This document shows, one piece after another, positions 15,089-35,093 of a stretch of 64,000 nt of DNA. The notes under the pieces were generated by a model. It saw only the letters and a list, made by a program, of their open reading frames with translations. It did not search any database and had not been told where the DNA came from. The stretch lies in the NCBI GenBank assembly GCA_903861005.1, contig CAIOSP010000011.1, positions 1 through 64,000 of the forward strand, written 5' to 3'. Position numbers and translations under genes: made by a program. Position 1 is the stretch's first letter, and each line of letters starts with the position of its first letter. The stretch is from an uncultured Pseudomonadota bacterium (lineage in GTDB: Bacteria > Myxococcota_A > UBA796 > GCA-2862545).

Positions 15089-15439
15089 ATGACCGGACCG
15101 AAGCCGACATCCTACCGCGAGAAGGTCGTCCTTCCCGTGGGATGGGAAGAACCCGATGGAACACTCTACCGGGAGGCTGAAGTTCGTGCCGTCACCGGCG
15201 GGGACGAGCTCTGGATCGGGATGTCGCAGCAGTACGCTCGGCATCCCAATGATCTCGTCTACAAGACGCTGCTGCTCTCGCGTACGGTGACCAAGCTCGG
15301 TCCTCGTACGTCCATCACGCCAGCGGAGATCAGCAGCCTCCATGCGCTCGACGTTCGGGCCCTGGAGTACGCCGTCTACAAGCTGACGTACGGCGAAGAG
15401 AATCTCCCTCCGGAGGACCCGGCTTCCCCGGGGGGGTGA
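15089..15439 (+). CDS. Tail assembly chaperone / T4 baseplate-like small protein
   Basis: 116 residues with a GGAGGT ribosome-binding site. The pattern VVLPVGWEEPDGTLYREAEVRAVTG followed by a helical region (KTLLLSRTVTKLG, ALEYAVYKLTYGEENL) matches small proteins found right after the tube gene in many CIS and phage-tail clusters, annotated as tail assembly chaperones or T4 baseplate-like proteins. It probably acts during tube or baseplate assembly. The stop overlaps the next start as GTGA. Confidence 0.65.
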   Translation: MTGPKPTSYREKVVLPVGWEEPDGTLYREAEVRAVTGGDELWIGMSQQYARHPNDLVYKTLLLSRTVTKLGPRTSITPAEISSLHALDVRALEYAVYKLTYGEENLPPEDPASPGG

Positions 15440-17882: not shown

Positions 17883-18601
17883 TGGCGTTCGACCCCTCAT
17901 CGCTCAAGCGCCTGATCGGCATGACCGAGAAGGCCACGCTCAAGTCCCTCGACGCGAACGCGGACTCGTTCGAGCTGCAGTTCAACCCTGAGAAGGGCTC
18001 GCTACACCTGACGCGCAGCATCAACTGGTCCTTCACACAGGGCCTGGACGCCCAGAGCGCGGGAGGAGACGCGAAGTTCAAAGGCAGCGAGGCGGACGAG
18101 CTCTCGTTCGATACCCTGCTCGACGACACCACCGGCGGCGCGGCGGCGTACGCGGCGGCTGCGGGCAAGTCGGCCTTGGCCCTCACGCTCACCCTGGCGG
18201 TCGATCAGTCGACGACGCTCGTGACCAACAAGCGCCTGCTCGCGCTCAGCGGCATGGACCTCGGCGTCGGCGCCGCCGACGCCGTCGCCGAGGCGCTCCT
18301 CCGCACGCTGAGCCGCTCGTCGGTCCACAAGCAGATCAAGAAGCTGTACTTCCTGACGACGAACGACGCCGAAACGGGCGCGACAAAACGTCCGAGCGTC
18401 GTGCAGTTCAAGTGGGGGGACTTCGACTTCGTCGGCGTGATCAGCCGAATCAACGTGACGTACCTGGTGGTCACCGAGGGCGGGTACCCGAAGCGCGCGA
18501 AGGTCGGGATCACGCTGCGCGGACGCAGCTTCGTGGGCGGCATGGGCGCCGATGAATTCCTCCAACCCCCCGACTGGTCACGACCGTTGAGCTTGCCATG
18601 A
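17882..18601 (+). CDS. CIS tube/hub adaptor (Afp7 / CIS_tube, LysM-type)
   Basis: 239 residues; ATG start overlaps the previous stop. The segment SFELQFNPEKGSLHLTRSI early in the protein, the later ELSFDTLLDD, and the strand-rich end (VVQFKWGDFDFVGVI, TYLVVTEGGYPKRAKV, ITLRGRSF) match the CIS tube protein family (Afp7/Pvc7, often carrying a LysM domain), which adapts the tube to the hub. Position between the second tube and the gpD hub agrees. A separate LysM domain is not obvious at the C-terminus. Confidence 0.8.
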   Translation: MAFDPSSLKRLIGMTEKATLKSLDANADSFELQFNPEKGSLHLTRSINWSFTQGLDAQSAGGDAKFKGSEADELSFDTLLDDTTGGAAAYAAAAGKSALALTLTLAVDQSTTLVTNKRLLALSGMDLGVGAADAVAEALLRTLSRSSVHKQIKKLYFLTTNDAETGATKRPSVVQFKWGDFDFVGVISRINVTYLVVTEGGYPKRAKVGITLRGRSFVGGMGADEFLQPPDWSRPLSLP

Positions 18602-19638
18602 CCTTCGCCATCGCCGTGAAGCTGGGCAGCCTCAACCTGCGCGACGGCGACGACTCGATCACCCTCGAGCGCGTGGAGTACGTCGAGTCGATCGACGACC
18701 TCGACGCGCTCACCGCGGAGTTCTCGGTCTCGTCGGACGACCTCGGCGCGCTGTGGCCCAAGATCCAGCCGAGCGTGGTCTACACGGTCCAATTCTCGAA
18801 CCTCAAGACCGGCAGCCCCAAGGGCGCGGCGATCAAGGGGACCGTGGTCGACGTGCAGTTCGAGCGCCAGGGCGCCAACCGCTGCCTGGTCACCGTGATC
18901 GGGCTCGAAGACCTGTGCAAGCTGCGCGGGAGCGCGGCCGAGGTCGCCTGGGAGGACGCGCCGGACAAGATCGTGAAGGCGATCGCGCAGGCGGGCGGGC
19001 TTACGGCCGACGCGGACGCGTCCAACGTCGTGAAGTACCGGGTGGAGCGCGGCGGCATGGACGACGCGCGCTTCCTCAAGGTGCTCGCCAGCAAGTTCCA
19101 CTACCGGGTCGGCATGGTGAACGGGAAGCTCGCGTTCAAGCGGCGCAGCGTCGTCGACGCCACGGTCGACGTGCGCGCCGCGGACATGGACGACGGCGCG
19201 CGCATCGGCGCCTCAGTCGACGGCCTGGCCACCAAGGTCACGGTGTGGGGTCGCGACCCCAAGCAGAACGGCTGGTTCTCCGAGATGGTGACGAGCGTGC
19301 CCCGCGGGATCAGCGGCACGGACATGGGCACGGCGCTCGCCAAGAAGGTCTACAAGAGCGCCGAGGTCGAGCTCCGCGACGCGGGGTGCCCCACGCCCGG
19401 CGCCGCCCAAGAGCGTGCCACCGCCGAGTTCCGGCAGCGCGCCGAGCGCTTCGTGCGCGGCCAGATCGACGTGAAGGGCAACCCCGACATCCGCACGGGG
19501 ACCGACATCAACCTGCTCGACAGCGTCTGGCCGTTCAAGGGCAAGTACCGCGTGCGGCAGGTGCGCCACATCGAAGACATGAGCGGGTACCGAACCTCGG
19601 TCGACATCTACTCCGACAGCCTCCCCAGGAGGACCTGA
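18598..19638 (+). CDS. Baseplate hub protein (phage late control gpD / gp27-like)
   Basis: 346 residues, ATGA overlap with the preceding gene. The order of segments (a 'VEYVESIDDLDALTAEFSVS' opening, GTVVDVQFERQG, EDAPDKIVKAIAQAGGL, DARFLKVLASKFHYRVGMVN, KVTVWGRDPKQNGW) matches the gpD family (phage late control D; N-terminal VgrG-like hub). The trimeric hub carries the spike protein encoded at 11391-12062; in Afp these two functions lie close together as Afp8. Here they are separate genes 7 kb apart, a split arrangement as in phage P2. Confidence 0.88.
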   Translation: MTFAIAVKLGSLNLRDGDDSITLERVEYVESIDDLDALTAEFSVSSDDLGALWPKIQPSVVYTVQFSNLKTGSPKGAAIKGTVVDVQFERQGANRCLVTVIGLEDLCKLRGSAAEVAWEDAPDKIVKAIAQAGGLTADADASNVVKYRVERGGMDDARFLKVLASKFHYRVGMVNGKLAFKRRSVVDATVDVRAADMDDGARIGASVDGLATKVTVWGRDPKQNGWFSEMVTSVPRGISGTDMGTALAKKVYKSAEVELRDAGCPTPGAAQERATAEFRQRAERFVRGQIDVKGNPDIRTGTDINLLDSVWPFKGKYRVRQVRHIEDMSGYRTSVDIYSDSLPRRT

Positions 19639-19641: not shown

Positions 19642-20058
19642 ATGGCGCACACCCGCGTCGACCTCGCCCTCTCCCTCGTGCGCTCTGAGCCGTCCAAGCT
19701 CGAGGCGCTCGTGGACCGCGTGCGCATCCTGCTCGAGACCAAGCCCGGCGCGTTGCCGTACGACAAGCGCCTGGGCTGCGATCTCGACGCGCTCTCCCAC
19801 GGCGCCGTCACGGCGTCGCGGCTGGCGGAGACGCAGGGACGCATCGACGGCGTGCTCGCGCGCGGCCTGCCCGACGGCGTGCACGGCGGCACCGAGGTGC
19901 GCGTGATCGACGTCGTCGCCGGCACCGCCGCCGGCGGCCCCGTCCCCTTCGCCGAGCGTGCCCTCGCCTCAAACGGCGCACGCGCCACCCTCGCGGTGCG
20001 CGTTCAGCTCAACACCGAGTCCGGTCCTGTCACCCTCGACGCCAACCTGGCTCGGTAG
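19642..20058 (+). CDS. Baseplate wedge protein, gp25-like
   Basis: 138 residues, with an AGGAGG ribosome-binding site inside the end of the hub gene. It has the compact size of gp25/GPW family wedge proteins and the typical 'R.LLET.pGalP.d..lGcdL' pattern (VRILLETKPGALPYDKRLGC). It ends in a strand, ARATLAVRVQL. Immediate position before the gpJ gene is the canonical gp25-gpJ order in phages and CIS. It should link the sheath to the wedge. Confidence 0.8.
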   Translation: MAHTRVDLALSLVRSEPSKLEALVDRVRILLETKPGALPYDKRLGCDLDALSHGAVTASRLAETQGRIDGVLARGLPDGVHGGTEVRVIDVVAGTAAGGPVPFAERALASNGARATLAVRVQLNTESGPVTLDANLAR

Positions 20059-20064: not shown

Positions 20065-22461
20065 ATGCGTGTCACCCCACCCGATGCCCTCAAGATCGAT
20101 CGAGACGAGCTGCTGCGCGATGTGCGCGAGCGGCTTGAGGTGCGCGCGCCTGCGCTCGCCGCCTCCCTCGACGCGGCGCACCCCGCGTGGATCCTGCTCC
20201 AGGAGTCCGCGTGGATGGTGGAGCGGCTCACTGAGAAGCTCGACGCGTGGCCTTGGGCCGTGCTCCAGCAGTTCGCCCACCTGCTCGGCGCGAGTGTGCG
20301 CCCCGCGGTGCCGTCGCTCGGCATCATCACCATGGAGCCCGCGGAGGATGGCATCCTCGACGTGAGCGCCAACCCGGCGCGTTGGCGCTTCTTCGCCAGC
20401 CAGAACGAAGACCGCGGCCTCGTCGAATTCGCGCTCGCCGAGAACGGCGCGCCGCTCTGCGTGGCGCGCGTCGCAGGCCTGGCGCGCCTGCGCGACAGCG
20501 AGCTGTGGACGGCCGACGACGGCGCGACCCGCTCAGAGGCGACGCCCGACGCCACCGCGTGGTTCGGGTCCGAGCAGCGCGCGTCCGTGTTCGCGGGCGA
20601 GGTGTTCCGCTTCCAGATCCGCGCCGCCGACGCCGTGCGCGTGGAGACCGAGATCAACGAGGCGATCGCGCGCATGCTCGAGACGCGCGATCCGGGCTGG
20701 TTGCGCTTTGAGGTCACGTGCCCCGACGAGCACACCGTGCGCGTGGAGGCCACGATCGACGTGACGCTCCCCAACTCCACCGCCGACGCCGCCGATCAGG
20801 CCGACGTCATCGCCGCCTGGCGCCCGCTGGACGACAGCAACTGGACGCCCAGCGTCCGCATCAGCGACCACCCGGTCCTGCCGTGGAAGCTCCGGGGCGC
20901 GCGCCCCATGCGCACGGACGACGGCATGATGCTGGTGCCCGGCGTACCTCGCAACATGCTGCGCAACGAGATCCTCGTGCGAGACGCGCGCCCCGCGCCG
21001 CCCGAGATCCCCGACGCGCTGTGGAACACGCTCGCGCACATGGACAAGCGCCTCGCCGCGCTCAAGCCCACCGTGTCGCGTGGTGTCCGCGCCGCGAACG
21101 CAGATCCGGCCTGGGTCGACGACGCCTTGCGCGGCCGCGCCTGGGCGGCGGTGGAGCGCTCCCCAGACCGCAGCTACGCCTACGTCACGCTCGACGCCAC
21201 CGAGGCGGATCGACGTCTTCGGTTCGCGTGGGTGGTGGAGCCAGGCGCGCTCCCGCGCGCGGAGGCGTTCGGCCGCTACGAGGCCGCCGGGATCCTCCCT
21301 GGCGGGCTGGACGTGACCCCCGCGTGGGACCTCACGTTGCCCAACCCGTCGGCGGGCGGCCTGTCCGCCGTCGTGGCGTTCGACGTGGTGGTGCCCGGCG
21401 GCGCGAGCGGCGTGCTGCTCGCGATCGACGGCCCGGCCAAGGCCGTGCTGCTGAACACAGCCCTCGTGATCAACGCGCCGGTCGTGCGCGACGGCCGCGG
21501 TGCCGTGGTGTCGCGCGCGGTGCCCGAGCCTGTCAGCATGCTGTTCGAGGACATCGTCACGCCCGCCACGCTCGAGCAGCTGGCGACGAGCGGCCTCCCC
21601 GCCTCCGCGGCGCGCGCGCTGCGCATGCTCCCGTGCTCCGTGCTGATGGTCGACGGCACCACGCCGCTCGTCAACTTCGACGGCGTCGACGTGGACGCGG
21701 TGCAGGGCATCGTGACGCTCAACGCGCCGGACGCGGTCGGTCGAACCCATACGCTGCGCCGCGGCCAGCAGGTCGAGCTGCGCTGGTACCGTCGCACACA
21801 GGCCGCGCTTGGCAACGTCGGCGCGGACCAGATCAACTTCGCCGAGCAGGCGATGACCACCCGTCCGCGCGTCGCGCGCGTGACCAACCCCCTGCCTACT
21901 TTCTGGGGCCAGGATCGCGAGCGTGAGGAGGACGCGGTGCTGCGCGTGTTCGGCCCGCAGACCGGCGTCCCCGTCACACCCGCCGACTGGGAGCGGCTCG
22001 TCCGCGTCGAGCTTGGCGCGCGCGGTGAGGACTGGACCGTGCGGGTGTGGGGCTACGCCGAGCGCACCCTGCTCTCACACGATCTCTGGCCGCCGCACGA
22101 CATGGGCGTCGAAGACCCCGAGCGCGCGCGCCTCTCCAAGGCGCTGCAGACCGCGGGCGCCGACACGCTGCTCGTCGTCGTGGGCCCGGAGTCCGGCGTG
22201 CTCTCGGACGTGGATCTCGCTCACGCCAAGCGGCTCATCCGCGCGCTCGTCGCGCGTTGGGGCGCGCGCACCGGCGCCGTCCGCGACGCCGAGGTCACGC
22301 GCTACTGGCCGCTCACGCTCGAAGGCGAGCATGACGGTGTCACGCCGTCGTTCTCGCCGCGCGAGTCGCACGGCACGCTGGTCGATCCGCTGGGCCGCCG
22401 CGGGCCGGTGCCGCGCGTGGCGCTGCTGCTGAACGCCGCGATCACCAAGGTCCACGCATGA
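20065..22461 (+). CDS. Baseplate wedge protein, gpJ/gp6-like
   Basis: 798 residues. The opening (LKIDRDELLRDVRERL, ILLQESAWMVERLTEKLDAWPWAV, FAHLLGASVRPAVPSLGIIT) is typical of baseplate J family proteins of CIS (Afp11/12 type). A repeated beta-rich middle and a C-terminal TPADWERLVRVELGARGEDW segment, which resembles the conserved gpJ end, follow. It should form the triangular wedge ring around the hub. Overlaps the next gene by ATGA. Confidence 0.85.
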   Translation: MRVTPPDALKIDRDELLRDVRERLEVRAPALAASLDAAHPAWILLQESAWMVERLTEKLDAWPWAVLQQFAHLLGASVRPAVPSLGIITMEPAEDGILDVSANPARWRFFASQNEDRGLVEFALAENGAPLCVARVAGLARLRDSELWTADDGATRSEATPDATAWFGSEQRASVFAGEVFRFQIRAADAVRVETEINEAIARMLETRDPGWLRFEVTCPDEHTVRVEATIDVTLPNSTADAADQADVIAAWRPLDDSNWTPSVRISDHPVLPWKLRGARPMRTDDGMMLVPGVPRNMLRNEILVRDARPAPPEIPDALWNTLAHMDKRLAALKPTVSRGVRAANADPAWVDDALRGRAWAAVERSPDRSYAYVTLDATEADRRLRFAWVVEPGALPRAEAFGRYEAAGILPGGLDVTPAWDLTLPNPSAGGLSAVVAFDVVVPGGASGVLLAIDGPAKAVLLNTALVINAPVVRDGRGAVVSRAVPEPVSMLFEDIVTPATLEQLATSGLPASAARALRMLPCSVLMVDGTTPLVNFDGVDVDAVQGIVTLNAPDAVGRTHTLRRGQQVELRWYRRTQAALGNVGADQINFAEQAMTTRPRVARVTNPLPTFWGQDREREEDAVLRVFGPQTGVPVTPADWERLVRVELGARGEDWTVRVWGYAERTLLSHDLWPPHDMGVEDPERARLSKALQTAGADTLLVVVGPESGVLSDVDLAHAKRLIRALVARWGARTGAVRDAEVTRYWPLTLEGEHDGVTPSFSPRESHGTLVDPLGRRGPVPRVALLLNAAITKVHA

Positions 22462-23204
22462 CCGGACCGCACCTCCGCACCGCGCCCATCGAGTGGGCAT
22501 GGCGCGCCGCGTCAGGCAGCCTGCACGGTCTGCGCTGGGTCGATCTGATGGTGGAGCCCGAGCGTCCTGAGTTCTCGCGCTCCGAGGACGGTGACGCCTT
22601 CCGCGGTCCGGCGCTCGACGCGTTCCTGCCGCCGCCCATGGTCGAGGCCGCCGCGGACGCGTCCGATCGCGGCGAGCCGACGGCGCTCGACGGCCTGGCG
22701 CTGCTGCTGGCCCGCGCGTCGTGGATGGTCGAGACCCGCTCGCTGCTTTGGACCAGCGGCACGCCGATGCCTGAGATCCTCACGCGGCTGGTGGAGTCTT
22801 ACGGCATCGACGTCGAAGCCCATCGGAATGACCCTTCGCTCCTGGTGAACCTGCGCGCGCAGCTGCCGACCTGGTACCCGTACCGAGGCGACGCGCACCG
22901 CGCGATGAAGCTCCTCGAGAGCGCGCTGGACGAGGACCTGGGCGTCACCATCGAGCCCGACAGCTCGGACGGCGAGGCGTTCGCCTGCCATGACGCGTCG
23001 TGGTGGGCCACGCGCGGCGCGGCCGCGGGCACCCTGGTGATCGAGGGCGGCTTGACCCGCTTCGCGCCCGGCACCGAGCCCGCCTGCCCCGTCGAAGACG
23101 TTCGCCTGGCGCCCCACGCCGACCTGTCCGGCCCGTCGCGCGTGATGTTCCGCCTGCTGCCGGCCTGGACCACTCCCCGCCTCCTTCCCCAGCGTGATGC
23201 ATGA
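22458..23204 (+). CDS. gpI-like baseplate component
   Basis: 248 residues. It follows the gpJ-like gene as gpI does in P2-type tails. A recognisable segment is [26 protein letters not shown], comparable to the 'LP..yrrRGT..gl..lL' motif of gpI/TIGR02242-43 tail proteins, with a following beta-rich end ([10 protein letters not shown]). Otherwise diverged. I considered a TssG-like protein, but no TssF or TssK partner is convincing. Overlaps at both ends by ATGA. Confidence 0.55.
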
Positions 23205-24067
23205 CCGAGATCTCCCGTTCGATCTTCCGCCCGCAAGAGGGAGCCGTGCTCGACCTCGCGAGCCTCGCGATCGTCGCTGAGCAAGCCTCCGAGGCACACT
23301 CGGCGTGGCTCAGCGCACGCTGGCCCGGCGCCACTGGCCTCATCCTGGACGGCTTCGAGGTGGACGGCGACGTGGCCCCCGTCGGGCCGCCCGGCACCGT
23401 CCGCCCGGACGGTATGGTCGGGCACGCCACCGTGCGCCCTGGCCGCGCTCTGATCGCCACGCGCGGCGGCGCCTTCCACGTCGTCACGCTCGACGCGCCG
23501 ATCGCCGTGCCCTGGCCCGACGTCACCGGCCCGCAGGTTCGGGGCACGCTGGTGCTCTACGCCACGCAGACGGCGGAGTCCGGCCCTGGCGGGATCAGCG
23601 TCGCGCGCGAGCGGCTCACGGTCCAGCTCGGCTTCCTCAAGCCGGACGCGCCCGAGTCCTCGCACCTGCTCCCGCTCGCTCGCGCGATCGGCAACAGCCA
23701 GGACTGGACGACGGATCTGGCGCGCATCCTACAGCCCGAGCACCCGGCGATCCGCCAGCTGCTCAAGCGCTTCGAGCGCCTGGAAGAGACGGTGTGGAAC
23801 GCGGAGCCGGAAGGCGCCGTGTGGGACCGTCAGGTGTTTGGCCGCAGCTGGGTCCGCTACCAGACGGTGGCCTCCGCGGCGATCCAGGCGGCGGTTGTCC
23901 AGCTCTCCACGCACTCGCTGACGACGCTGGAGCGCGCGCGCCTTGTCGCCACGCTGCGGCAACAGCTGGAGCGCTCCGTCGAGCGCGCCGCCACCGAGCT
24001 GCTCCAGATGATCGCCCCCTCTGAGGCCACCGGTCCGTACCGCATGGTCGCGGGCATGTCGGCTTGA
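23201..24067 (+). CDS. Putative baseplate-associated protein
   Basis: 288 residues. The N-terminal half reads FRPQEGAVLDLASLAIVAEQ, GLILDGFEVDGDV and ATVRPGRALIATRGGAFHVV. This resembles baseplate-associated CIS proteins with the form 'F...DF..e..y......GLeV....v.V.pGrAid..G'. The C-terminal half is helical (IRQLLKRFERLEETVWNAE, ARLVATLRQQLERSVERAA). No membrane segment. A TssK relation was considered, because TssK also joins baseplate and membrane complex, but the typical 'eGmfl.PQHFQ' motif is only partly visible (IFRPQEG). The next four genes encode membrane proteins, so this protein is well placed to be an adaptor between them and the baseplate. Confidence 0.5.
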   Translation: MTEISRSIFRPQEGAVLDLASLAIVAEQASEAHSAWLSARWPGATGLILDGFEVDGDVAPVGPPGTVRPDGMVGHATVRPGRALIATRGGAFHVVTLDAPIAVPWPDVTGPQVRGTLVLYATQTAESGPGGISVARERLTVQLGFLKPDAPESSHLLPLARAIGNSQDWTTDLARILQPEHPAIRQLLKRFERLEETVWNAEPEGAVWDRQVFGRSWVRYQTVASAAIQAAVVQLSTHSLTTLERARLVATLRQQLERSVERAATELLQMIAPSEATGPYRMVAGMSA

Positions 24068-25692
24068 CCGATCTGCGCAACGTACTCGGCTTGCGCCGGC
24101 TCCGCGAGACCATCGCGGAGCAGGCCCTGCCCGTCGTGGCTTCGGCCGCGGCGTGGTGGTACGCGCGCCAACTGTTGATGCCCCCCTCGGTGACGCGCCC
24201 GCTCGCGCCGCTCGAGCTGCTGCTGGTCTTGGGCTGTGTGGCGGCGACCATGGCGTGGCTGACCGCGCGTCAGCTCACCGTGCTCAACATCCGGCGACCG
24301 CGCGTGCACGTGCTTTGGGGCTTGGGTTCCGCGACGGTGGCGATCGGCATCCTCTCTTGGTCCGTGACCCGCGGCTTTGCGTCGTCGTGCACCCAGCTCG
24401 GCGGCAAGGTCGAGACGGTCCAGGCCGTGATCGTGCAAGGCGCCAGCTTTGACGGCGGCCTGATCTGCAGGGTCAACCCGGTGCCGGACAACGTGTACCT
24501 GCCTGGCACGCTGCTGCGCGCGGCGTGGGACGGCACGGTGCCGCCGCTCTACGTGCTGGTGCTCGCGGCCATCGCGGCGCTGTCGGCGCTTGGCCTCCGC
24601 GAAGCGCGGGTCGCGCCCTCCCGCCTGGGCATCGCCATGGCGGAGGAGCTCTGGATGGCCCCCGCCGCGGGCTCCAAAGCCGTGTTCGGTGGCAAGTCGG
24701 ACGGCGTCGTGCAGGCCTGCGGCAACCCCACCCTGTGGGGCGAACCCTGCGGCCAGCTCTACTCGGCCGAGCACACGTTCGAGCCGGGCGACTGGTGCAT
24801 CCGCTGCGCGCAGGTCTTCCGTCGCTCCGAGCGCACGATCACGTTCTCCGTCGTCAGCCTGTTCAGCGCGGACATCGACGTGCTCAACGGCCTGGAGCGC
24901 ATGGACGCCACCGCGTGGTCCGCCGATGAGGCGCAGCCGCCCGACGCGCGCCTGTCGGGCCAGGAGCGGTGGGTCCGGCTGGGGCAGATTGAGGTGCCGG
25001 AGGTGGTCACGGTCTCGACGCTGCTGCAGCTGGTGATCGAGAGGCTCGACGCGTGGGGCAAGGGGGCGCCGCCTGATCAGGCTCCGGCGTTCGCGCTCGC
25101 CAAGAAGCGCGCCAGCCGCCTGTCGTCGTGGATCTGGATCGGCCACGAAGAGAACGCGCTCACCTACGCGCGGCCGACGTCGCGCGCGCTGCTCGCGGTG
25201 GGCCCGACGCGCCTGAAGGACCTGCCGATCGAGGGCGGCGAGCGCCTGGCGCTGCAGCTCGACATCGGCCTGCTGCCGCTGGAGCTGCGCACGGCGTTCC
25301 GCCAGACCTTCTTGGACCCGACGCGCCCGCCGCTGGTGCAGAACCAGAAGCAGGACGTGTGGGTGCCTGTCGCGCCGCCGCAGGGCGTGCCGGAGGGCCT
25401 GTGGGTGCCGCGCGTCGAAGGCGATGCGCTCCGCGCCTGGCTGGCGCTCGATCGCCTGCGCGCGGAGGACGCCCGTGGGGTGGTCAGCCCGCGCCCTTAC
25501 ATGTTCCCCGAGCTGCCGTTCGCCGACGCCCCGGTGGAGGAGGGTCGCCTGGACCTTGTCCGCATGCCGCTGCGTGACGGCAAGCCCGTGTTCGAGCGCG
25601 CACCCGGCAGGTCCATCGCCGAGTGGGAGTGGATGGAGGAGCCGCACCTCGAGCTGCTCCGGCAGCAGGCGCTCGTCCTGGTGGTCACATGA
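24064..25692 (+). CDS. Membrane protein with four-cysteine motif, unknown CIS-associated family
   Basis: 542 residues from a TTG start overlapping the previous stop (TTGA). Hydrophobic segments lie at about 21-38, 48-68, 82-100 and 160-178. A large soluble part follows. It contains Cys219, Cys229, Cys245 and Cys248 (ACGNPTLWGEPCG ... WCIRCAQVF), arranged like a zinc-binding site. The C-terminal 250 residues have helical and Pro/Trp-rich stretches (LSSWIWIGHEENALTYARP). I do not recognise the family. It is locked into the structural operon by overlaps at both ends, so I infer a component that fixes the injection system to the cytoplasmic membrane. Confidence 0.7.
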   Translation: MTDLRNVLGLRRLRETIAEQALPVVASAAAWWYARQLLMPPSVTRPLAPLELLLVLGCVAATMAWLTARQLTVLNIRRPRVHVLWGLGSATVAIGILSWSVTRGFASSCTQLGGKVETVQAVIVQGASFDGGLICRVNPVPDNVYLPGTLLRAAWDGTVPPLYVLVLAAIAALSALGLREARVAPSRLGIAMAEELWMAPAAGSKAVFGGKSDGVVQACGNPTLWGEPCGQLYSAEHTFEPGDWCIRCAQVFRRSERTITFSVVSLFSADIDVLNGLERMDATAWSADEAQPPDARLSGQERWVRLGQIEVPEVVTVSTLLQLVIERLDAWGKGAPPDQAPAFALAKKRASRLSSWIWIGHEENALTYARPTSRALLAVGPTRLKDLPIEGGERLALQLDIGLLPLELRTAFRQTFLDPTRPPLVQNQKQDVWVPVAPPQGVPEGLWVPRVEGDALRAWLALDRLRAEDARGVVSPRPYMFPELPFADAPVEEGRLDLVRMPLRDGKPVFERAPGRSIAEWEWMEEPHLELLRQQALVLVVT

Positions 25693-28412
25693 TCCGCCTC
25701 CTCGGACCGGTCCCGTTCGACACCGCCGCCGCAGGCCGCGCGGCGCGTTCGCTGCTCAGCCGCCTGGCCACCGCGCCCGCGGAGATCCCCGTCGGCCAGG
25801 GCTCCCTGCCCGGCCTGTACCTGGTGATGGACGACTCGGGCGCGCTGCGCGGCTTCTGGGTCACGCTCGGCGCGTCCTGGCTGGACGAGGGCACGGTCGG
25901 CGGCGTCACCCCGCCGTTCGCCAAGGCCCTGCTCGACGCGGCCACCGAGGAGCTGTGGTGGGCGCGCTTCCAGGTGGCGCCCATGGTCTTGGGCGCATGG
26001 CGCCCGCTGATCATCGTCGAGTGGCCGGCGAGCTTGGCCGACCGATCCTCCCTGGCGCCCCCGGGCGTGCCCGCCGAGGTCGACCCTGCGGCCGACCCGA
26101 CGCGCCGCGGCCCGTCGCGCTGGCTGGTCCCAGACGGCCTTGAAGAGTCGGTCGCGTCCGAGATCCAGCAGGCGACGAGCGCGCGCTGGGCTCATCTGCC
26201 GCCCGCTCGGTCCCTGCTGTGCATCGTGCGTGGATCGCTGCGCTGGACGCGCGCGGTGCACGAGGGGCGCTTCGAGCTGGTGTACCTCGCCGAGCCGGAG
26301 GCCGAGGGCCTAGGGATCGGCTCGATGCCCGCGTCCTGGACGCGCGACGGCCTCCCCCCCGACGAGTGGATCGAGATCGCGTCCGGACAGGCGACGCGCC
26401 CCGAGGGCGAGCACCAGCTCGGCCACCCGCTCCAGCTGCCGGGCGGTCGCATCGGCTTCCCGATGTCCGGCTGGCTCAGCCGTGAGCTCGACATCCACCC
26501 GTCGCGCCCGATCGACGCCGCGGTCGGACAGCTCGTGTCGCGCGACACGCGCAGCCAAGTCCTCGCCCAGGCCACGCTGGCGGCCGCGGTGACGGCGTGG
26601 GTGCTGATGGGCACGCTCGCGTTCTCCGGCGGCCTGCGCTGGCTGTCGCAGCCCACCGTGCAGGGCGCCGCCCCCGCGCTGGAGCCCGCCGCGCAGCCCG
26701 CGTTCTCAGTCTGCTCCGCCGACCACGGACGCTTTGTCGACCAGCTCTCTTGCCAGGTCGAGTACATCGCCGCCGGGGGCGAGCCCGGGAAGGCCAGCTG
26801 CGCCGACGCCCGCCACGAGACCGACCTGCAGGCGTCCTGGTGTGGCCTGCGCGATCGCACGCTCGACGGCACCAACGCGCCGTCCGGCTACCCGTGGGCG
26901 GACGCCGCGGCGGCGCAGGCCTGCTTCGAGGTGCTCGACAAGCCTTGGGAGTACGCGCTCGGCGGCATCGGCGACACCGTCGCCAACCCCGGCAAGCTGC
27001 TGGAGGACCCCAAGCTGCGCGTGAACTCGCTGGTCGAGCTGGTCGCGAGCCTGGACGCCGGCTGCAACGCCTACCGCGAGCGCATGGAGAAGCTGGTCGA
27101 CGGCGCGATCCTGGCGGCCCACGTGGGCGGCGAGGACGGCGAGGCCAAGGCGCTGCAGGACCAGGCCTTCGCGGTGGCGACGCAGGGCCAGTCGCCCACG
27201 TCCAGGCTGTGCATGGAGGCCGGCCGCAGCCAGCCGATCGAGGCCTCGACCGAGCTGTTCGGCCTGTGCGGCGCCGACTCCGCCGAGGACAGCTGGCGCG
27301 AGGTCGTGCCCTGGCGCGCGCTCGGCGGCGAGCCCCCCCACGACGTGCCGTCGGTCATCGACCGCTACGTCGCGGCGCGCTTCGCCGCGTCGCCGCCGCG
27401 TGAGGGTCGCTGGGCCTGTCACTCTCTGCTCGCCGCCAGCCTGGGCGGCGGCGTGAGCCCGGGCGTGTGGGATCAGGTCGTGCCCGCGCCGGAGAGCTAC
27501 CGCAGCGGCGGCTCGCGCAACCAGCTCGGGCTGGACTCGTGGGTCTTGGCGTCGCGCACAGACAACCCGCCCAGCGACGTCTGCTGGAACGAGGTGGCCC
27601 GCATGTTGGCCGCCTACACCCCCGCCCACCCGCTGCTGTCCGAGCCCAAGCCGGACGGCTGGCCTTCGGCCGAGCAGCAGGTCTGCGGTCAGGTCTGCAC
27701 CGACTACTTCCACCTCGCCAAGCCCTCGTCCGCTTCGGGCGGCGCGCTCGCGTCCACGGCCACCGCGTGGGCCACGCCGGGCTCCGACCTCGCCGCGTGT
27801 GTGGACCGCTCTGCCCCGGGCCTTGGCCGCGCGGGCGGGATCGACGACCGCTTCGACAAGCTCGCCATCCCTTGGAACCGCGCCCGCGACGGGTCTTGGG
27901 TGGTGCCCGAGTACGCCGACGTCTGCGCGTTCAACCTGCTCGCGCAGGGCCTGGTGCCCGACGTGCTCCCCGCCGATCTGCCCGCCACCAGCTGGGCCGG
28001 ACAGTCCGTCCCCGGCAGCAAGATCGCGGGTGGCGTCACCGGCGCCGCCGCCCAGTCCGCCGCCGCGCTCGTCGAATACGGCCGCAACCGCAGCTCCGCG
28101 ACCTGCGGGCGCGTCGCCGTGCAGTGCTTCGTCCGTAAGATGCTCGACGTGACCGGCGATCCCTCCCTCGGCCCGCAGCTCTGGCCCGAAACCTGGAAGC
28201 GCCGCGTGGACGACCTGAGCCGCGCGTCCTCCGACGATCTGGCCGACGAGCCATGGTGCCGCGTGATCCGTCCGTTCCTGCCGGTCGACGGCCGACTGCC
28301 CGAGGGTGAGCTCGACTACCCTTGCGTGGTCGGCGTCACCGAGGCCCGCGAGCGCGTCGCCCGCGCGGTCAACCGCTTCGCCGCCGGCGTCACCGAGGGC
28401 GCCAAGCCATGA
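25689..28412 (+). CDS. Large single-span protein with Cys-rich periplasmic domain, unknown family
   Basis: 907 residues from the ATG overlapping the previous stop. Residues 1-290 are soluble and start MIRLLGPVPFDTAAAGRAAR. A single hydrophobic segment lies at about 296-318 (AAAVTAWVLMGTLAFSGG). The following ~580 residues contain many cysteines (for example FSVCSADHGRF, LSCQVEYIAAGG, ACFEVLDKPWE, GLCGADSAEDSW), which suggests disulfides in the periplasm. The topology of cytoplasmic N-domain, one span and large outer domain recalls membrane-complex proteins such as TssM, but I see no TssM sequence motif. Unknown family; a role in spanning the envelope is inferred. Confidence 0.7.
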   Translation: MIRLLGPVPFDTAAAGRAARSLLSRLATAPAEIPVGQGSLPGLYLVMDDSGALRGFWVTLGASWLDEGTVGGVTPPFAKALLDAATEELWWARFQVAPMVLGAWRPLIIVEWPASLADRSSLAPPGVPAEVDPAADPTRRGPSRWLVPDGLEESVASEIQQATSARWAHLPPARSLLCIVRGSLRWTRAVHEGRFELVYLAEPEAEGLGIGSMPASWTRDGLPPDEWIEIASGQATRPEGEHQLGHPLQLPGGRIGFPMSGWLSRELDIHPSRPIDAAVGQLVSRDTRSQVLAQATLAAAVTAWVLMGTLAFSGGLRWLSQPTVQGAAPALEPAAQPAFSVCSADHGRFVDQLSCQVEYIAAGGEPGKASCADARHETDLQASWCGLRDRTLDGTNAPSGYPWADAAAAQACFEVLDKPWEYALGGIGDTVANPGKLLEDPKLRVNSLVELVASLDAGCNAYRERMEKLVDGAILAAHVGGEDGEAKALQDQAFAVATQGQSPTSRLCMEAGRSQPIEASTELFGLCGADSAEDSWREVVPWRALGGEPPHDVPSVIDRYVAARFAASPPREGRWACHSLLAASLGGGVSPGVWDQVVPAPESYRSGGSRNQLGLDSWVLASRTDNPPSDVCWNEVARMLAAYTPAHPLLSEPKPDGWPSAEQQVCGQVCTDYFHLAKPSSASGGALASTATAWATPGSDLAACVDRSAPGLGRAGGIDDRFDKLAIPWNRARDGSWVVPEYADVCAFNLLAQGLVPDVLPADLPATSWAGQSVPGSKIAGGVTGAAAQSAAALVEYGRNRSSATCGRVAVQCFVRKMLDVTGDPSLGPQLWPETWKRRVDDLSRASSDDLADEPWCRVIRPFLPVDGRLPEGELDYPCVVGVTEARERVARAVNRFAAGVTEGAKP

Positions 28413-29866
28413 TCGCCATGCTCCGCCGCCTCGCCATCTCGCCGAAGAGCAACCTCGATCTGCTGGCCGCATGGGTCGTCACGGTCGCCGTCCACACGGT
28501 GGTGCCGGACGAGGTCATCCTCGCGCGGCTCGACTTGGTGCCTTGGTTCACGCTGTGCATGACGCTCGTCGCCGTCCTGCGCGCCCAGCCGCTCGGCGAC
28601 CCGCACCACCCCTCGCTGTCGGTGCGTCGCGCGTCGTGGTCGGGCCTGTTCGGTCGGGTCGGCTACGCGCTCGCCCCCATCGCCACGCTGCTCGTGTACG
28701 ACGCGGCCGCCGGTCGCGCGGATCCCTGGGGCACCGACCTGCTGACGCCCATCGCGGCGGCGGCGTGCTTGGTGGTGGCGGTGCTGCTGACCATCGGCAA
28801 CGCGCAGGGGTTGACCTCGTGGAACCCGCCGGGGCCCAACACCTTCGTCGTGTGGACGCTGCGAGGCCTGCTCTTCCTCGGGGTGGTCGTGGTCCTCGGG
28901 CACTACAACACCGCGCCGGTCACGCGCGGGCCTGGCGCGACGGCCGCCGCGCTGCTCGGCGCGCAGTTCCTGGCGCTCGGCCTGCTGCCCGACCGCATTC
29001 AGTCCTACCGGCAGCGCCGCGCCGCCGGTCGCCGCGACGGCAAGATGCACAACCCGCCCGCCTTCCGCTTTCTGCTCGCGGCGTTTGGCCCTAGCCTTGG
29101 GCTGGGGCTGCTGATCGTCGTGCACGACGCGCTGGGCATGACGATCAGCTTCACGCAGTCGACGGTGGTGTCGCTGCACGTGTTCGCGTGGGCCGCGGTC
29201 ATCTGGCCGCCGCGCGTGCCGGTGGCCGTCAGCTGCATCCTGCACGAGGTCGTCCCGTCCGGCGGCGGCGACCCCGCGGTGAGCGGCACCAAGGCGTCGT
29301 TCGACCTGCCGGCGAAGGGCGCGCTGCGCCTGGACCCGCTCGCGATCAAGCGCGTCAGCATCCTGCACCACTGGGTCGTCCCCGTGCAGGACCCGCGCAT
29401 CGAGGACTTCGACGATCCGGTGCGCCTGCTGTGGTCGCGCCCGTCGCTGCCGCTGCCCTACCACGTGCTCGGCGAGGCCACGTTCGAGCCGGACGACGCC
29501 ACGCAGCTGCCGCAGTGGGACACCATCACCATCCGCCTCGACGAGCAGCGTGACGTGGGCCGCCTGTCGGACGGCAACGTGCAGACCCGTCGCCTGGCCG
29601 TGCTGCGCCCCTTCCCCACCCGCGGCCGCGGCGGCGCGCGCACCGTGCGCACCTACCGCTGGGACAAGCGCGTGGCGCCCGGCGCGCTTCAGGTGGTCGA
29701 CGCCACCACCCAGAGCATCGAGCTGCGCAACGGCGACCTGCTCGTCCTGTCGACCGAGGGCGTCGCCCGCGCGTACGAGCTGGAGATCGCCGCGCCGATC
29801 TTCGCGTCCGATGAGCTCGCCCATCGCCGCGGCCCCCACCTCGAAGACTACGTGGGGGTCTCGTGA
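28409..29866 (+). CDS. Polytopic membrane protein with C-terminal soluble domain
   Basis: 485 residues, ATGA overlap with the preceding gene. The first ~290 residues hold seven or eight hydrophobic helices (for example VPWFTLCMTLVAVL, PIAAAACLVVAVLLTIG, TLRGLLFLGVVVVLGHY, FGPSLGLGLLIVVHDAL). The last ~195 residues are soluble and strand-rich (DTITIRLDEQRDVGRL, GALQVVDATTQSIELRNGDLL). I do not recognise a transporter or enzyme family. Operon position between two single-span proteins makes a membrane platform for the CIS the simplest hypothesis. Confidence 0.7.
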   Translation: MIAMLRRLAISPKSNLDLLAAWVVTVAVHTVVPDEVILARLDLVPWFTLCMTLVAVLRAQPLGDPHHPSLSVRRASWSGLFGRVGYALAPIATLLVYDAAAGRADPWGTDLLTPIAAAACLVVAVLLTIGNAQGLTSWNPPGPNTFVVWTLRGLLFLGVVVVLGHYNTAPVTRGPGATAAALLGAQFLALGLLPDRIQSYRQRRAAGRRDGKMHNPPAFRFLLAAFGPSLGLGLLIVVHDALGMTISFTQSTVVSLHVFAWAAVIWPPRVPVAVSCILHEVVPSGGGDPAVSGTKASFDLPAKGALRLDPLAIKRVSILHHWVVPVQDPRIEDFDDPVRLLWSRPSLPLPYHVLGEATFEPDDATQLPQWDTITIRLDEQRDVGRLSDGNVQTRRLAVLRPFPTRGRGGARTVRTYRWDKRVAPGALQVVDATTQSIELRNGDLLVLSTEGVARAYELEIAAPIFASDELAHRRGPHLEDYVGVS

Positions 29867-31431
29867 TCTCGCTGCTGTTCTGGATCACCGCCGCCACCGC
29901 AGGCGACTGGCGTCTCGTCGCCGCCTACGACGCGTCCGCCGTGGCCACCGTCGCGCCGGAGGAGCCGCGCTTCGTGTGGCGCCCGGTCGACGAGATGTCG
30001 ACGTCGTGCGGGCCGGCCAAGAGCCCAGACGGCCTGGGCATGTTCGAGGCCGAGACGGTCGCGAACGGGCTGGCGCCGACGCTCGCGCTGGTGCTGGAGC
30101 GCACGGTCCACCAGGGCGAGTCTGCGTCGCTCTCTAGCGACGACGTGCGCGTGTCGATCGGCGGCATGTCGACCGACGGTCAGGAGCGGCGCGTGCTGCT
30201 CCACCCGATGGTCGAGCCGCGTCACCTGGCGATCGAGATCAAGGCGCCGTCCGGCACCGAGCGCTTCGGCCAGCTCGTGCGCACGCAGCTCGAGGTCGAG
30301 ACCTGCCTGGAGCACAAGGTCGGCCGGGGCTGGACCGGCCAGGACGCCGTGCGCCTTCGCCAGGCCTTCATGCTGACGCCGCCGCGCACGATGCTCGCCA
30401 GCCGCAAGTACTTCGGCGGCGAGCGCGACCCGGTCCCCGCGCTGCTCGGCCCGCCCGACGCGTGTGTCATCGGCGCCGCGGACACCACCCGCGCCACCAT
30501 CGGCCGCGGCGAGGGCAGCCTGACCCTCGTCCCGACGGACGTGTGGGGCGCTGCCCTTCGCGCGTGCGACGTCACGGCGCTGACCGGCGCCGTCATCCCC
30601 TCGACCGAACGCCTCCTCCCGCTCGCGCTGACTGGCGCCGGCGCCGCTGAGACGCGCACGGCGCGCTGGGAGCACCTGGAGGTGTTGATGGGCAGCGACG
30701 TCGCGGAGCCCACCGAAGCCCAGGTCCACGTGACCCTGCGCTACGCCGACAGCTGCCTGTTCGACGGCCCCCTGTTCCGCCCCGGCCAGAAAGCGGCGCT
30801 GGAAGATCTGCTCGCCAAGGTCCCGCATCGCTACCCGGTGCTGCACTCCGACCTCGCCGATCTCGTCGTCCTGATGGTCCCCAACTGGCAGCTCGTGGAG
30901 GCGCTTCGTCAGATCCAGGCGCCGGACCCGGACGCCGAGTCCGACCTGCCGCCCGCGGGCGTCGCCGACGCGGTCGGCTTCCTGCTCGCCAACCCCGAGC
31001 ACCTCTTCGTGCAGGTTCGCCCCACGTCGCACCCGTCGGACGGGTCGTGCCCCGCGCCCGACGCCGCCGCGGAGGACGCGCACGTCGAGCAGGCCGAGGT
31101 CTGGTCCAACCTGGCGGGCGTGATGCGTTCGCGCACGCTGGGCCAGCCGTGGGGCTACACGGTCGGGCTGCTCGCCGGTCGCTCGTCGATCGTGCTCCCT
31201 CGCGCGCAAGCACCGACCTGGACGCAGACGCTCGCCGCCCAACGCGGCACCGAGCAAGCCGCGCTGTTGATCTGCCTGTGCGTCGTGTTCGGCGTCCTGG
31301 GGATCGGCCTGCGCCGCGTCCCGGACCTGTGGGCCCGTATCCCCGTCGAGCGGGCGTTCTACTGGCCAGGCGTCGCCAAGTTCGTGCCGCCCGAGGCCGA
31401 AGTCGGCGCCCCGCCAGAGGCGGAGGGATGA
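29863..31431 (+). CDS. Exported protein with C-terminal membrane anchor, unknown family
   Basis: 522 residues from a GTG start overlapping the previous stop. The N-terminus MISLLFWITAATAGDW is a short signal peptide, probably cleaved near residue 13. The ~450-residue outer domain has no family that I recognise. A hydrophobic helix at about 465-485 (AALLICLCVVFGVLGIGL) is followed by a basic cytoplasmic tail ending EAEVGAPPEAEG. The expected topology is periplasmic domain, single anchor and short cytoplasmic end. This is the third or fourth envelope protein in a row within the CIS operon. Confidence 0.68.
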   Translation: MISLLFWITAATAGDWRLVAAYDASAVATVAPEEPRFVWRPVDEMSTSCGPAKSPDGLGMFEAETVANGLAPTLALVLERTVHQGESASLSSDDVRVSIGGMSTDGQERRVLLHPMVEPRHLAIEIKAPSGTERFGQLVRTQLEVETCLEHKVGRGWTGQDAVRLRQAFMLTPPRTMLASRKYFGGERDPVPALLGPPDACVIGAADTTRATIGRGEGSLTLVPTDVWGAALRACDVTALTGAVIPSTERLLPLALTGAGAAETRTARWEHLEVLMGSDVAEPTEAQVHVTLRYADSCLFDGPLFRPGQKAALEDLLAKVPHRYPVLHSDLADLVVLMVPNWQLVEALRQIQAPDPDAESDLPPAGVADAVGFLLANPEHLFVQVRPTSHPSDGSCPAPDAAAEDAHVEQAEVWSNLAGVMRSRTLGQPWGYTVGLLAGRSSIVLPRAQAPTWTQTLAAQRGTEQAALLICLCVVFGVLGIGLRRVPDLWARIPVERAFYWPGVAKFVPPEAEVGAPPEAEG

Positions 31432-31559: not shown

Positions 31560-34500
31560 TTGCCTGTTCGCAAGCCACTGCTGACCAAGCCGCGGGTGAT
31601 GCTCGCGACGCTGCAGAACCGCCAGGGCGGCTTGCGTGTGTCGTGGACAGGCTCGCTGACGGGTGCGCGGTGGAGCTCGTTGCTGGCCATGGCAGCCAAG
31701 CGGTCACCGCTCGCATCGATGGCGCCCCGACAGACCGACCAGGAGCCGGGTCAGCTGACGCACCGCGGCGGCATCACCACGATGCGGGACGAGTCGGCGT
31801 CCGTCCAGTCGCAGACGCTGATCCCGGCCGAGCCCACGGCCGCCGGCGTGGCGATGACCGGCTTTGTGAGCATGCCCAAGGGGGCGTCGGCGCCAAGCGC
31901 CCCGACCCAGCCCAAGCTCCCTGAGTCCATCCCCATCGTCGTCGTTGTCCCCCGGCCGCCGCCCCAGGAGACGCCGGACCCGCCGCCCCTGCCGCCGCGT
32001 CCGCGTCTCCACGCGAAGTCCCCGCCCCCGCCGCTGACGCGTCCGCGCCGGCAGGCCGACCCCCACGTGTCCCCGCCGCCGCACGGCGCGAGGGAGACGA
32101 CCACGCCGCCTGGCCCGTCCGCCACCACGCTGCGCCCCGGGCCGACGACCACGCAGTCCGACGCTCCGCCCGTGGGACCACGCCCGGTGCCGCCGCCCAA
32201 GCGCTTCGGGCCGTTCCGACGCCCGGTGCGCGCGCTGCTGTCCACCGCGCCGCTCCCGCTCACCGGCCTGGGCTCGTCGCCGCAGCAGCCCTCCACGCTC
32301 GCGCCGCCGATGCCGCCTGCGCCGTTGGGCGTCGGCCCCAAGCCGCCGCGCCCCCCTCGCCCCCGGCGCCCCCGCGACGTGCGCGGCCCGGTCGACGCGC
32401 CCCCGCTCCCGCAGACGCCGGAAGGCTCCTCTTCGTCGCCGCTGCCGGTGACCCGCGAGCGCGCGAGCGCGCCGCCGACGCCGCCGAGGCTCCCGCCGCG
32501 CATCACCGAGCCGCCGCTACCCAAGGCGCCGCGGCGCCTGGGTCCCACCGCGCTCGGGCTGGCGTCCACCCAGGTCGGCGCAGATCGGGCGCTTGGCCTC
32601 GTCCGCCGGCACAGCGCCTCGCTGCTGGTGCGCTCGCGTCGCGATCCGAACCGCGGTCCGTCGCCCCTCCCGCCCACGCCGCTGACGTCGCCGCAGGGTC
32701 TGGTCACGCCTCAGCCTCGCGATCGCACGGAGTCGACGCCGCCGCAGGGGCTCGTGTTGTCGCCGACCGATCTGGTTCGGTCGCCCACCCCGACGCCCTC
32801 GGCTGAAGGCTTCGGGTCTCGGCTGCGCGCGGCGACGCTGCCGCTCAGTCTAGCGCCCATCCTCAGCCGTGGTGCGAGCCCCACCCAGTTCCGCTTCTCG
32901 CCCGAGCTGACCACGGTCGTGCCGACGATCGACCCCGTGACGCATTCGCCGTCCCCGCAGCCGCTGCCCACGCGCGCGCCTACGCTGATGGAGCGCGTGC
33001 GCGCCATGGTGGGCGGCATCGTGAGCGGCCAGCCGCCCCCTCCCACGATCAAGACCGCGTCCGAGCAGCTGAAGGAGGCGCACGCGCTCTCCGACCGGCT
33101 CGACGAGGTGGTGAAGCGTCTGCCCAAGACGGTGGTCGGGCAGGACCCGACGACCGCGCCCACCGAGGATCGGACGCCCGGCCGCACCACCGGCGCCGAG
33201 GCCCTTGCGCAGGCGCACGAGCTCTCGGACCGGCTCGACAAGGTCACCGACTCCGTCCACGGCTCCAAGCCGGCGCGGATCGGGCTCAAGCGCATGGCGC
33301 GCGGCAGCCTCCTGACACCGTCCGCGCTGGTGCTGGGATCGGTCAGCCCGCCCAAGACCATGCGGAGCATGGACCGTCAGGTGATCGTGCCGGAGCAGGT
33401 CGGCGACTCGCCGTCGAGCACGCCGCAGGCGCCGCCCGAGACCAGCGCCGTCCGGCCCGCCCCCCGCCCGACAGCGCCGTGGCGATCAGACTCGCCGACC
33501 GACTACACCTCGAGATTCTCACCGCTGGAGCCGTACGCCAAGCAGGCCTTCAAGCTCGCCAAGCGGGCCACCGCCGCGTGGTGGCCCACGTGGAGCCGCG
33601 TCCCCAAGCGTCCTCAAGCGATCGACGTGCTCACCGGGCGCTTCGCCCGCGCGCTCTACATCGCCGACCTCCGCGCGGAGTTCTCACTGAGCAGCCGGCA
33701 GAGGAGCCAGCTCTATGAGTTTGAGGAAGACGAGGCCGCCGATCTGCACGAATTCGGTAGCAACCTCCTGCTCGACAGGGCCCTGGACCGTCCCTTCAAG
33801 GGCGAGATGCCCGAGGAGCCGAAGCCCAAGCAGGGAGGATTGCGCGGCGCCGTGGGGAGCCGTTCGACCGCACTGCGCACGTCCGGCATGGGCACGCCGC
33901 GCCTCATGCGCGACACCGAAACGCGGCACACGGTCATCCCGGACGTCCCCGCGTCCAAGCTCGACTCGGGCGGAAAGCCCGACGGCAAAGTCGGTGAGTC
34001 CGACAGCGAGAGGCCGAGCGCGGTTCGTTACGGGAGTTCGGCCCACGCGCGGTACGATGGACGTGCCACGGTGCTGGCCGATTGGCGCAACAACCGAATC
34101 GACAACAAGGACTTCAAGAACGACCACGAGCTGGCGCGGAAGGCGCTGGAAGACCTGAACTACGAGGAAAAGGTCAAGGGCAACCGACCGGAGACGCCCG
34201 AACGCAAGCTGCGAAAGAAGCTCGAAGGAATCCTCGAGTCGGAGGACAACGCCAAGACCCTCGACGCAGAGATCGACGCACAGACCGACCTGCGCCCCGC
34301 GGAGCGCGTCCGGTGGCACCGCGCGTCCAAGCTCGGCGAGCGGTCTCACAAGGCCTGGTGGCCCACCTGGATCACGCGCGACGTCGTGGTCACGTGGAAG
34401 AAGCGTGTCGTCGACGGGGAAGAGCGTGAGGTCAGGGAAAGCCGCCTGCAGGCCGCCCCCAAGCGGCCCAGCGTGCGATCGATGTCCGCACGCTACGTGC

Positions 34501-35093
34501 GCGCGCTGGAGATCGTCGAGATCCGCGCCAAGCCGAAGCGCACGGCGGACGATCAGCGACGGCTCATGGACCTCACCGACGAGGAGGACGCGGAGCGCGC
34601 CAAGATGGGCAGCTGGCTGCACCTCGACCTGCTGCTCAAGCGCCACAGCGCGCGAGACGGGGCGTCTATCCGAACGTCGGTCGTGCAGGAGTCCGACGAT
34701 CCCGACGCGCCGTCCGTCATCTATGACGACGTCGAGCAGATCGTGCTCTCCTCGCGCAAGCGCTCGTCCGACGGGACCGCGCCGCCGCGCCCGACCGCCC
34801 AGCAGATCCCGCCGGTGCCCACACCCCCGCCGGTCCCCGTCGAACAAGGCGGGCTCGAGCCGGACGCGCAGTCCAAGCTCGAGCTCAGCCCCAAGACGTC
34901 CACCGCGCCGCCGCAGCCCGCGTCGTCGCCGCCGACGGTGGACCAGCTCCTCTCCGCCATGGATGAAAACACGCTCGCCCGCCTTGTCCAGCGCGTGCTG
35001 GACGACAAGCAGGAAGGGAGCGCGGTGCTCGCCAGGGCGATTGACCTGCTCGAGCGTCGTGCGCGCTTCGGCGCGCTACGGGAAGTCCGATGA
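31560..35093 (+). CDS. Proline-rich 1177-residue protein with duplicated AWWPTW domain
   Basis: The TTG start abuts the previous stop, with AAGGA upstream. Residues 1 to about 480 are an extremely Pro/Arg/Thr-rich, probably unfolded region. Around 500 and 545 lie two similar helical segments (LKEAHALSDRLDEVVKRLP and LAQAHELSDRLDKVTDSV). Two copies of a domain of about 100 residues follow, near 655-755 and 918-1030. Each contains AWWPTW, a P-K-RP segment, R-ARAL-I--RA or R-VRAL-IVEIRA, and an acidic DEE-EA stretch leading into a LL-LDRAL or LDLLLKRH end. The last 110 residues are again Pro-rich. I recognise no family. Candidates are a tape measure, an envelope-spanning scaffold or a cargo protein; only its place in the operon is certain. 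Confidence 0.7.
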   Translation: MPVRKPLLTKPRVMLATLQNRQGGLRVSWTGSLTGARWSSLLAMAAKRSPLASMAPRQTDQEPGQLTHRGGITTMRDESASVQSQTLIPAEPTAAGVAMTGFVSMPKGASAPSAPTQPKLPESIPIVVVVPRPPPQETPDPPPLPPRPRLHAKSPPPPLTRPRRQADPHVSPPPHGARETTTPPGPSATTLRPGPTTTQSDAPPVGPRPVPPPKRFGPFRRPVRALLSTAPLPLTGLGSSPQQPSTLAPPMPPAPLGVGPKPPRPPRPRRPRDVRGPVDAPPLPQTPEGSSSSPLPVTRERASAPPTPPRLPPRITEPPLPKAPRRLGPTALGLASTQVGADRALGLVRRHSASLLVRSRRDPNRGPSPLPPTPLTSPQGLVTPQPRDRTESTPPQGLVLSPTDLVRSPTPTPSAEGFGSRLRAATLPLSLAPILSRGASPTQFRFSPELTTVVPTIDPVTHSPSPQPLPTRAPTLMERVRAMVGGIVSGQPPPPTIKTASEQLKEAHALSDRLDEVVKRLPKTVVGQDPTTAPTEDRTPGRTTGAEALAQAHELSDRLDKVTDSVHGSKPARIGLKRMARGSLLTPSALVLGSVSPPKTMRSMDRQVIVPEQVGDSPSSTPQAPPETSAVRPAPRPTAPWRSDSPTDYTSRFSPLEPYAKQAFKLAKRATAAWWPTWSRVPKRPQAIDVLTGRFARALYIADLRAEFSLSSRQRSQLYEFEEDEAADLHEFGSNLLLDRALDRPFKGEMPEEPKPKQGGLRGAVGSRSTALRTSGMGTPRLMRDTETRHTVIPDVPASKLDSGGKPDGKVGESDSERPSAVRYGSSAHARYDGRATVLADWRNNRIDNKDFKNDHELARKALEDLNYEEKVKGNRPETPERKLRKKLEGILESEDNAKTLDAEIDAQTDLRPAERVRWHRASKLGERSHKAWWPTWITRDVVVTWKKRVVDGEEREVRESRLQAAPKRPSVRSMSARYVRALEIVEIRAKPKRTADDQRRLMDLTDEEDAERAKMGSWLHLDLLLKRHSARDGASIRTSVVQESDDPDAPSVIYDDVEQIVLSSRKRSSDGTAPPRPTAQQIPPVPTPPPVPVEQGGLEPDAQSKLELSPKTSTAPPQPASSPPTVDQLLSAMDENTLARLVQRVLDDKQEGSAVLARAIDLLERRARFGALREVR

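Follow-up and report, generated by a model that had tools for sequence, protein, structure and literature searches.

A putative envelope anchor encoded behind the baseplate genes of a contractile injection system in an uncultured myxococcotal bacterium

How might a contractile tail of the phage kind be held in the envelope of the cell that makes it? The question is raised by four consecutive genes, here called A–D, in a 64,000-nucleotide stretch of DNA (the window; positions 1 to 64,000 of contig CAIOSP010000011.1) from an uncultured bacterium assigned to Myxococcota_A. The window is part of contig C11 in G000, a 5.8-Mb metagenome-assembled genome (MAG). The four genes encode predicted envelope proteins and lie directly after the baseplate genes of a contractile injection system (CIS) of the phage or extracellular (eCIS) type. 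In our assessment, A–D probably form the core of an inner-membrane and periplasmic anchor that docks the CIS baseplate, so that the system would fire from inside the producer in the manner of a type VI secretion system (T6SS). Such an anchor is best explained as convergent with the TssJLM complex of Pseudomonadota and the TssNQOPR complex of Bacteroidota.

Four coupled genes for predicted envelope proteins

The four genes, together with the preceding gene (named, like others below, after its start position), are as follows.

23201..24067 (+), protein 23201, 288 aa, soluble, no Cys
24064..25692 (+), protein A, 542 aa, ~4 transmembrane (TM) helices, Cys4 domain probably cytosolic
25689..28412 (+), protein B, 907 aa, one TM helix, Cys-rich outer domain
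28409..29866 (+), protein C, 485 aa, ~7-8 TM helices, ~220-residue soluble C-terminal tail
29863..31431 (+), protein D, 522 aa, signal peptide, C-terminal TM helix

The starts of A–D overlap the stops of the preceding genes by TTGA, ATGA, ATGA and GTGA, in that order. The original prediction, which described four consecutive envelope genes at 24064-31431 with overlaps of this kind, was borne out from the sequence with a single correction: the ATGA-coupled start of B is 25689, and the mechanical open reading frame (ORF) begins earlier, at 25623. Homologs of A–D in other genera and families share 29–50% identity, and comparison with the near-identical genome G117 gave synonymous/nonsynonymous differences of 5/3 for A, 49/13 for B, 28/5 for C and 30/8 for D. 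Judged by these distant homologs and mostly synonymous differences, A–D are real genes.

Topology was derived from a Kyte-Doolittle hydropathy scan of each window protein and each homolog. Protein A has about four helices, near residues 21-39, 50-68, 83-101 and 159-177, the first of which falls under the threshold in the window copy, and its predicted orientation is N-in/C-in. Its Cys4 site (C219/C229/C245/C248; C-x9-C-x15-C-x2-C), invariant in 12 of 12 sequences, is probably zinc-binding and on the cytosolic side; a second invariant pair, C109/C135, falls in a predicted periplasmic loop. The single helix of B, at 295-313, is predicted to separate a cytosolic N-domain of ~290 residues from a periplasmic domain of ~590 residues. 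All 18 invariant Cys of this protein (342-879) are C-terminal to the helix, and the one Cys of the N-domain is non-conserved. Protein C has six to seven segments above threshold in its fuller copies, consistent with seven to eight helices. Protein D combines a short N-terminal signal sequence with one helix at 465-483 and a short predicted cytosolic tail, its four invariant Cys lying between signal peptide and anchor. The invariant Cys of the domains predicted to lie outside (18 in B, four in D and two in A) form a disulphide pattern and thus support the topology independently of hydropathy. Both lines of evidence agree with the topologies first proposed for the four proteins.

Linkage to the contractile machinery

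The CIS cluster spans ~11.4 kb to 41 kb of the window, with A–D inside it. Upstream of 23201, the following genes were recorded.

11391..12062 (+), gpV-like spike with an OB domain
12641..14566 (+), contractile sheath, one protein with Phage_sheath_1 and 1C domains
14603..15055 (+), gp19 tube protein
15089..15439 (+), small conserved cluster protein, 55-65% identity among relatives
15610..16884 (+), conserved cluster protein, not assigned to a family
16881..17882 (+), second gp19-like tube protein
17882..18601 (+), CIS tube-initiator family protein (PF19266)
18598..19638 (+), gpD/VgrG-like hub protein
19642..20058 (+), gp25-like protein, weak PHROG match, baseplate wedge
20065..22461 (+), J-like wedge protein of the baseplate, matched by profile to Pfam Baseplate_J
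22458..23204 (+), baseplate gene at the gpI/TssG position, no Pfam match

The order thus runs from the spike, sheath, two gp19-like tubes, PF19266 initiator and hub through the gp25-like and J-like genes to the gpI-position gene, and continues with 23201, A–D, a Pro-rich protein, 35090, 38344, 39249 and an FHA protein. The J-like protein matched a Pfam Baseplate_J protein of the same class with a profile probability of 94%.

A was found in 13 of 282 sampled genomes of the phylum and in 15 of the 71 class genomes; no other sampled genome had it. The order J-I-23201-A-(giant)-B-C-D, with a giant gene at times between A and B, was kept in all related loci long enough for testing, and in the informative ones B, C and D follow A with conserved short overlaps. 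Some CIS sheath occurs in ~68 of the 71 class genomes, mostly of another subtype; the subtype seen here (>400 bits) occurs in 13 of the 71, all 13 of which carry A, and A is absent from all class genomes without this CIS type (hypergeometric P ~2e-12 across the 71, uncorrected for phylogeny). On account of this synteny and co-occurrence, a chance neighbourhood of A–D with CIS genes is ruled out. No relatives of A were found in viral contigs, plasmids or phages, and none of 23201 in viral contigs or plasmids, the two sets searched. The other CIS type, with two sheath genes ~2 kb apart, is present in most class genomes (L121 G000:C36, L122 G003:C440). In its G003 locus, the genes directly after J and gpI have no TM segment, and a ThiF-domain gene follows the baseplate block.

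These results bear on the reading that the system is a released eCIS, with A–D acting as an assembly or export device or as immunity or housekeeping membrane proteins outside the firing machine. The eCIS/phage-like set is present in the cluster (gp19 tube, phage-type sheath, spike, gpD-like hub and PF19266 initiator), and eCIS clusters have been described in Myxococcota MAGs (PMC11937823). However, the general family scans run on the window-cluster proteins recognised no tail fibre (Cis13), A is coupled to 23201 and the wedge genes in relatives as well, and class genomes with only the other CIS type are without A. This reading is regarded as quite improbable.

Tests of kinship with the T6SS

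The original prediction likened A–D to a TssL/TssM/TssJ-like membrane complex by layout only and saw no recognisable T6SS motif in them. Pfam, NCBIfam, PHROGs, PDB-sequence and profile-profile searches yielded no T6SS relatives of the four proteins. Member-by-member Pfam scans of the A–D families gave no consistent match; weak matches to SpoIIE and Bax1-I (C) and to Lambda_tail_I (one B member) were each confined to a single member and dismissed as chance. PDB sequence searches with profiles of A–D and 23201 returned nothing significant. In G000 and the sampled A-bearing genomes, there was no match to TssK (PF05936), TssL (DotU, PF09850) or TssM (IcmF, PF06761), for which 15, 15 and 12 of 140 phylum genomes, respectively, were positive.

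Profile-profile comparison (hhalign) of A–D, 23201 and neighbours with TssK, TssL and TssM of the same phylum gave probabilities all below 2%, the best matches being short TM stretches, against 97–100% for positive controls. For A–D, the values were at most 0.5% with TssL (control, 97.5%) and at most 0.8% with TssM (control, 100%). As far as Pfam and hhalign can detect, A–D are thus not homologous to TssK, TssL or TssM. For TssJ, the Pfam scan of A–D and 35090 gave no match, no TssJ profile or genome search being made; for TssN/Q/O/P/R, Pfam scans of the A–D members, made without direct comparison with a TssNQOPR profile, gave no match in their favour. A two-protein TssB/TssC sheath was likewise not found, the sheath being one protein. 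The remote homology check suggested at the outset therefore detected no relationship: the lack of a T6SS motif is confirmed, and the phrase "by layout only" proved apt for TssK, TssL and TssM. The wider reading of a T6SS-like complex is supported in part, in that the gene order, the co-occurrence and the retained coupling link A–D to the baseplate.

Could A–D nonetheless be highly diverged TssL/TssM/TssJ or TssNQOPR proteins, and the system a derived T6SSi or T6SSiii? The layout resembles both complexes, and gpI-23201-A parallels tssG-K-N. The N-termini of 23201 and TssK also both align in register with "RPFEG-L", a motif found in a CIS protein of 320 aa from the same class; the alignment is not significant, and 23201-TssK homology by this route was set aside as a lead only. 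Set against the hhalign values, the absence of a Pfam match for A–D, and a single phage-type sheath, gp19 tube and PF19266 initiator in place of TssB/TssC/Hcp, such descent appears very improbable.

The proposed anchor and its place among known systems

Protein 23201 is coupled to the gpI-position gene upstream and to A downstream, and in several genera the genes overlap by 4 bp at both junctions. One 677-aa ORF of G208 (L027:8881-10911, -) fuses the gpI-position protein with the 23201 homolog, which places 23201 at the baseplate. By position only, 23201 is proposed as a TssK-like adaptor, and A is proposed as a baseplate-docking hub. In the T6SSiii of Bacteroidota, where the gene order is tssG-K-N-(QOPR), the docking site of TssK is the cytosolic domain of TssN (PMC10781749). 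The order gpI-23201-A-B-C-D mirrors this arrangement, and the same docking logic is proposed here for unrelated proteins.

Further genes of interest lie before the cluster and after D.

1751..9379 (-), giant MopE-repeat surface protein, 2542 aa, CFVGQG C-terminal motif
31560..35093 (+), Pro-rich, Cys-free protein, 1177 aa
35090..38347 (+), protein 35090, 1085 aa, signal peptide, six conserved Cys
38344..39252 (+), 302-aa protein conserved in the CIS cluster, not assigned to a family
39249..40871 (+), protein 39249, 540 aa, one TM helix (185-203), conserved Cys in outer domain

The C-terminal region of 35090 has alternating strand-like segments, and the protein may be an outer-membrane component; the conserved Cys of 39249 lie after its helix. 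Both proteins are conserved and probably extend the A–D envelope set. The four members originally named thus hold, but the set was drawn too small, since 35090 and 39249 are also envelope-like and the giant surface protein is linked. In three relatives, the position of the Pro-rich protein is taken by proteins of 1380-1717 aa with a common helical C-terminal motif; it is possibly a ruler/tape measure or cargo. The cluster is closed by the FHA-domain protein (40882-41694, +), for which no homolog was seen in the related loci examined. A DUF2063 protein and an MbnB/TglH/ChrH-type modification enzyme of ribosomally synthesized and post-translationally modified peptides (RiPPs) adjoin the cluster end (41704-43276, -).

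The giant protein is linked to this CIS type. Its C-terminus carries CFVGQG..C..C, a hydrophobic stretch and an Arg-rich tail, and the codon pattern for CFVGQG occurs once in the whole genome, at the giant gene. Motif-bearing homologs stand between A and B in G019, G203, G260 and G293. In G251 and G256, A is followed by a giant that lacks the motif as far as its sequence was read, the one in G251 having MopE-like repeats; six genomes overall have related giants between A and B. In G077, a motif-bearing giant lies directly after the cluster, and none was seen in the examined flanks of G043, G024 and G208.

In the proposed working, the baseplate (gpD, gp25, J and the gpI-position protein) would carry 23201 on its wedges as an adaptor. 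The docking site of 23201 would be the cytosolic zinc-ribbon domain in A, with the N-domain of B and the C-terminal tail of C as possible further sites. An inner-membrane ring would be made up of the helices of all four proteins A–D. A rigid periplasmic channel would be built from 39249 and the disulphide-rich domains that B and D have in the periplasm, and 35090 may extend as far as the outer membrane. When the sheath contracts, tube and spike would be pushed through the channel into a neighbouring cell, which the giant MopE-repeat protein may help to hold or recognise. In this scheme, we infer the contacts, the outer-membrane placement, which way the system fires and what the giant protein does. 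There is about an even chance that this is a third independently evolved trans-envelope CIS complex, known to date from one class of uncultured bacteria, with its own ring, disulphide-rich channel, outer-membrane protein and giant MopE-repeat protein; the novelty of the A–D system is judged against the open literature only.

Several points weigh against an anchor of this kind. Physical contacts among its parts are proposals, and the outer-membrane placement of 35090 is read from sequence appearance only. The hhalign probability of 23201 with TssK was 0.1% (control, 99.8%), and single-sequence AlphaFold2 gave no usable fold (pLDDT of 40.6 for 23201 and 38.6 for A). Members of the A–D families come from one class only, and the alignments are shallow (7-12 sequences). 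Finally, a Cis15-type AAA+ ATPase is absent at the window locus; an AAA+ ATPase is seen in or beside the clusters of G043, G024 and G077, and in the first two its gene sits between the 38344 and 39249 homologs. Within the host genome, the closest AAA+ protein (38% identity) is on C36, the contig of the other CIS.

Alternatively, A–D could be a membrane trigger or sensor, in which A recruits a cytoplasmic CIS under stress and the system fires at the inner membrane, lysing the producer, a mode of action proposed for Streptomyces CisA or the tCIS of Anabaena. In Streptomyces, the bitopic membrane protein CisA, encoded just downstream of the baseplate genes, is needed for firing (PMC12237407), and A occupies the same gene position; the thylakoid-anchored CIS (tCIS) of Anabaena use membrane-anchored baseplate/fibre extensions (PMC8894136). 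However, CisA is one protein, whereas at least four envelope proteins are conserved here along with 39249 and 35090, and the large disulphide-rich periplasmic domains and probable outer-membrane partner exceed the needs of a trigger. This alternative is considered unlikely.

The proposed anchor resembles TssJLM and TssK of T6SSi/ii in that its genes lie next to baseplate genes and its inner-membrane proteins have docking domains in the cytosol and large domains in the periplasm. Unlike T6SSi/ii, it has no detectable TssK/L/M homology, its host genome is without these families, and the sheath is a single phage-type protein. Closest in logic is TssNQOPR of T6SSiii, a non-homologous replacement with a multi-helix protein bearing a cytosolic hub and several periplasm-facing proteins; there, too, membrane-complex genes directly follow the tssG-tssK position, an analogy of gene order only. 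The differences lie in A, with a Cys4 site and four helices (TssN has five), in the 18 invariant Cys of B, in the missing Pfam match of A–D and in a contractile core of phage/eCIS type. As in the Streptomyces CISSc, a membrane protein gene comes directly after the baseplate genes, a parallel that also speaks for the anchor reading. By its description, however, CisA is one bitopic protein in a monoderm, against four to six envelope proteins here, in an envelope of diderm type. The CIS would be held at the producer membrane, as in Anabaena; tCIS are anchored via Cis12/Cis13 extensions, whereas separate envelope proteins are proposed here. With eCIS (Afp, PVC, MAC, AlgoCIS) and T6SSiv, the system shares its tube, initiator, sheath, gpV spike and gpD-like hub and, in some relatives, the AAA+ ATPase; it differs from them in its dedicated multi-protein envelope module and the lack of a recognised tail fibre.

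So far, TssJLM and TssNQOPR are the two trans-envelope complexes characterised that bear on how contractile tails came to be anchored in cells. If the present reading is true, an unrelated complex on an eCIS-like tail would show recurring features, namely an adaptor beside a gpI-like wedge, a cytosolic hub and a periplasmic cage, and named genes would become available for testing cell-anchoring. CIS surveys that sort by T6SS marker genes may class cell-anchored systems as released eCIS.
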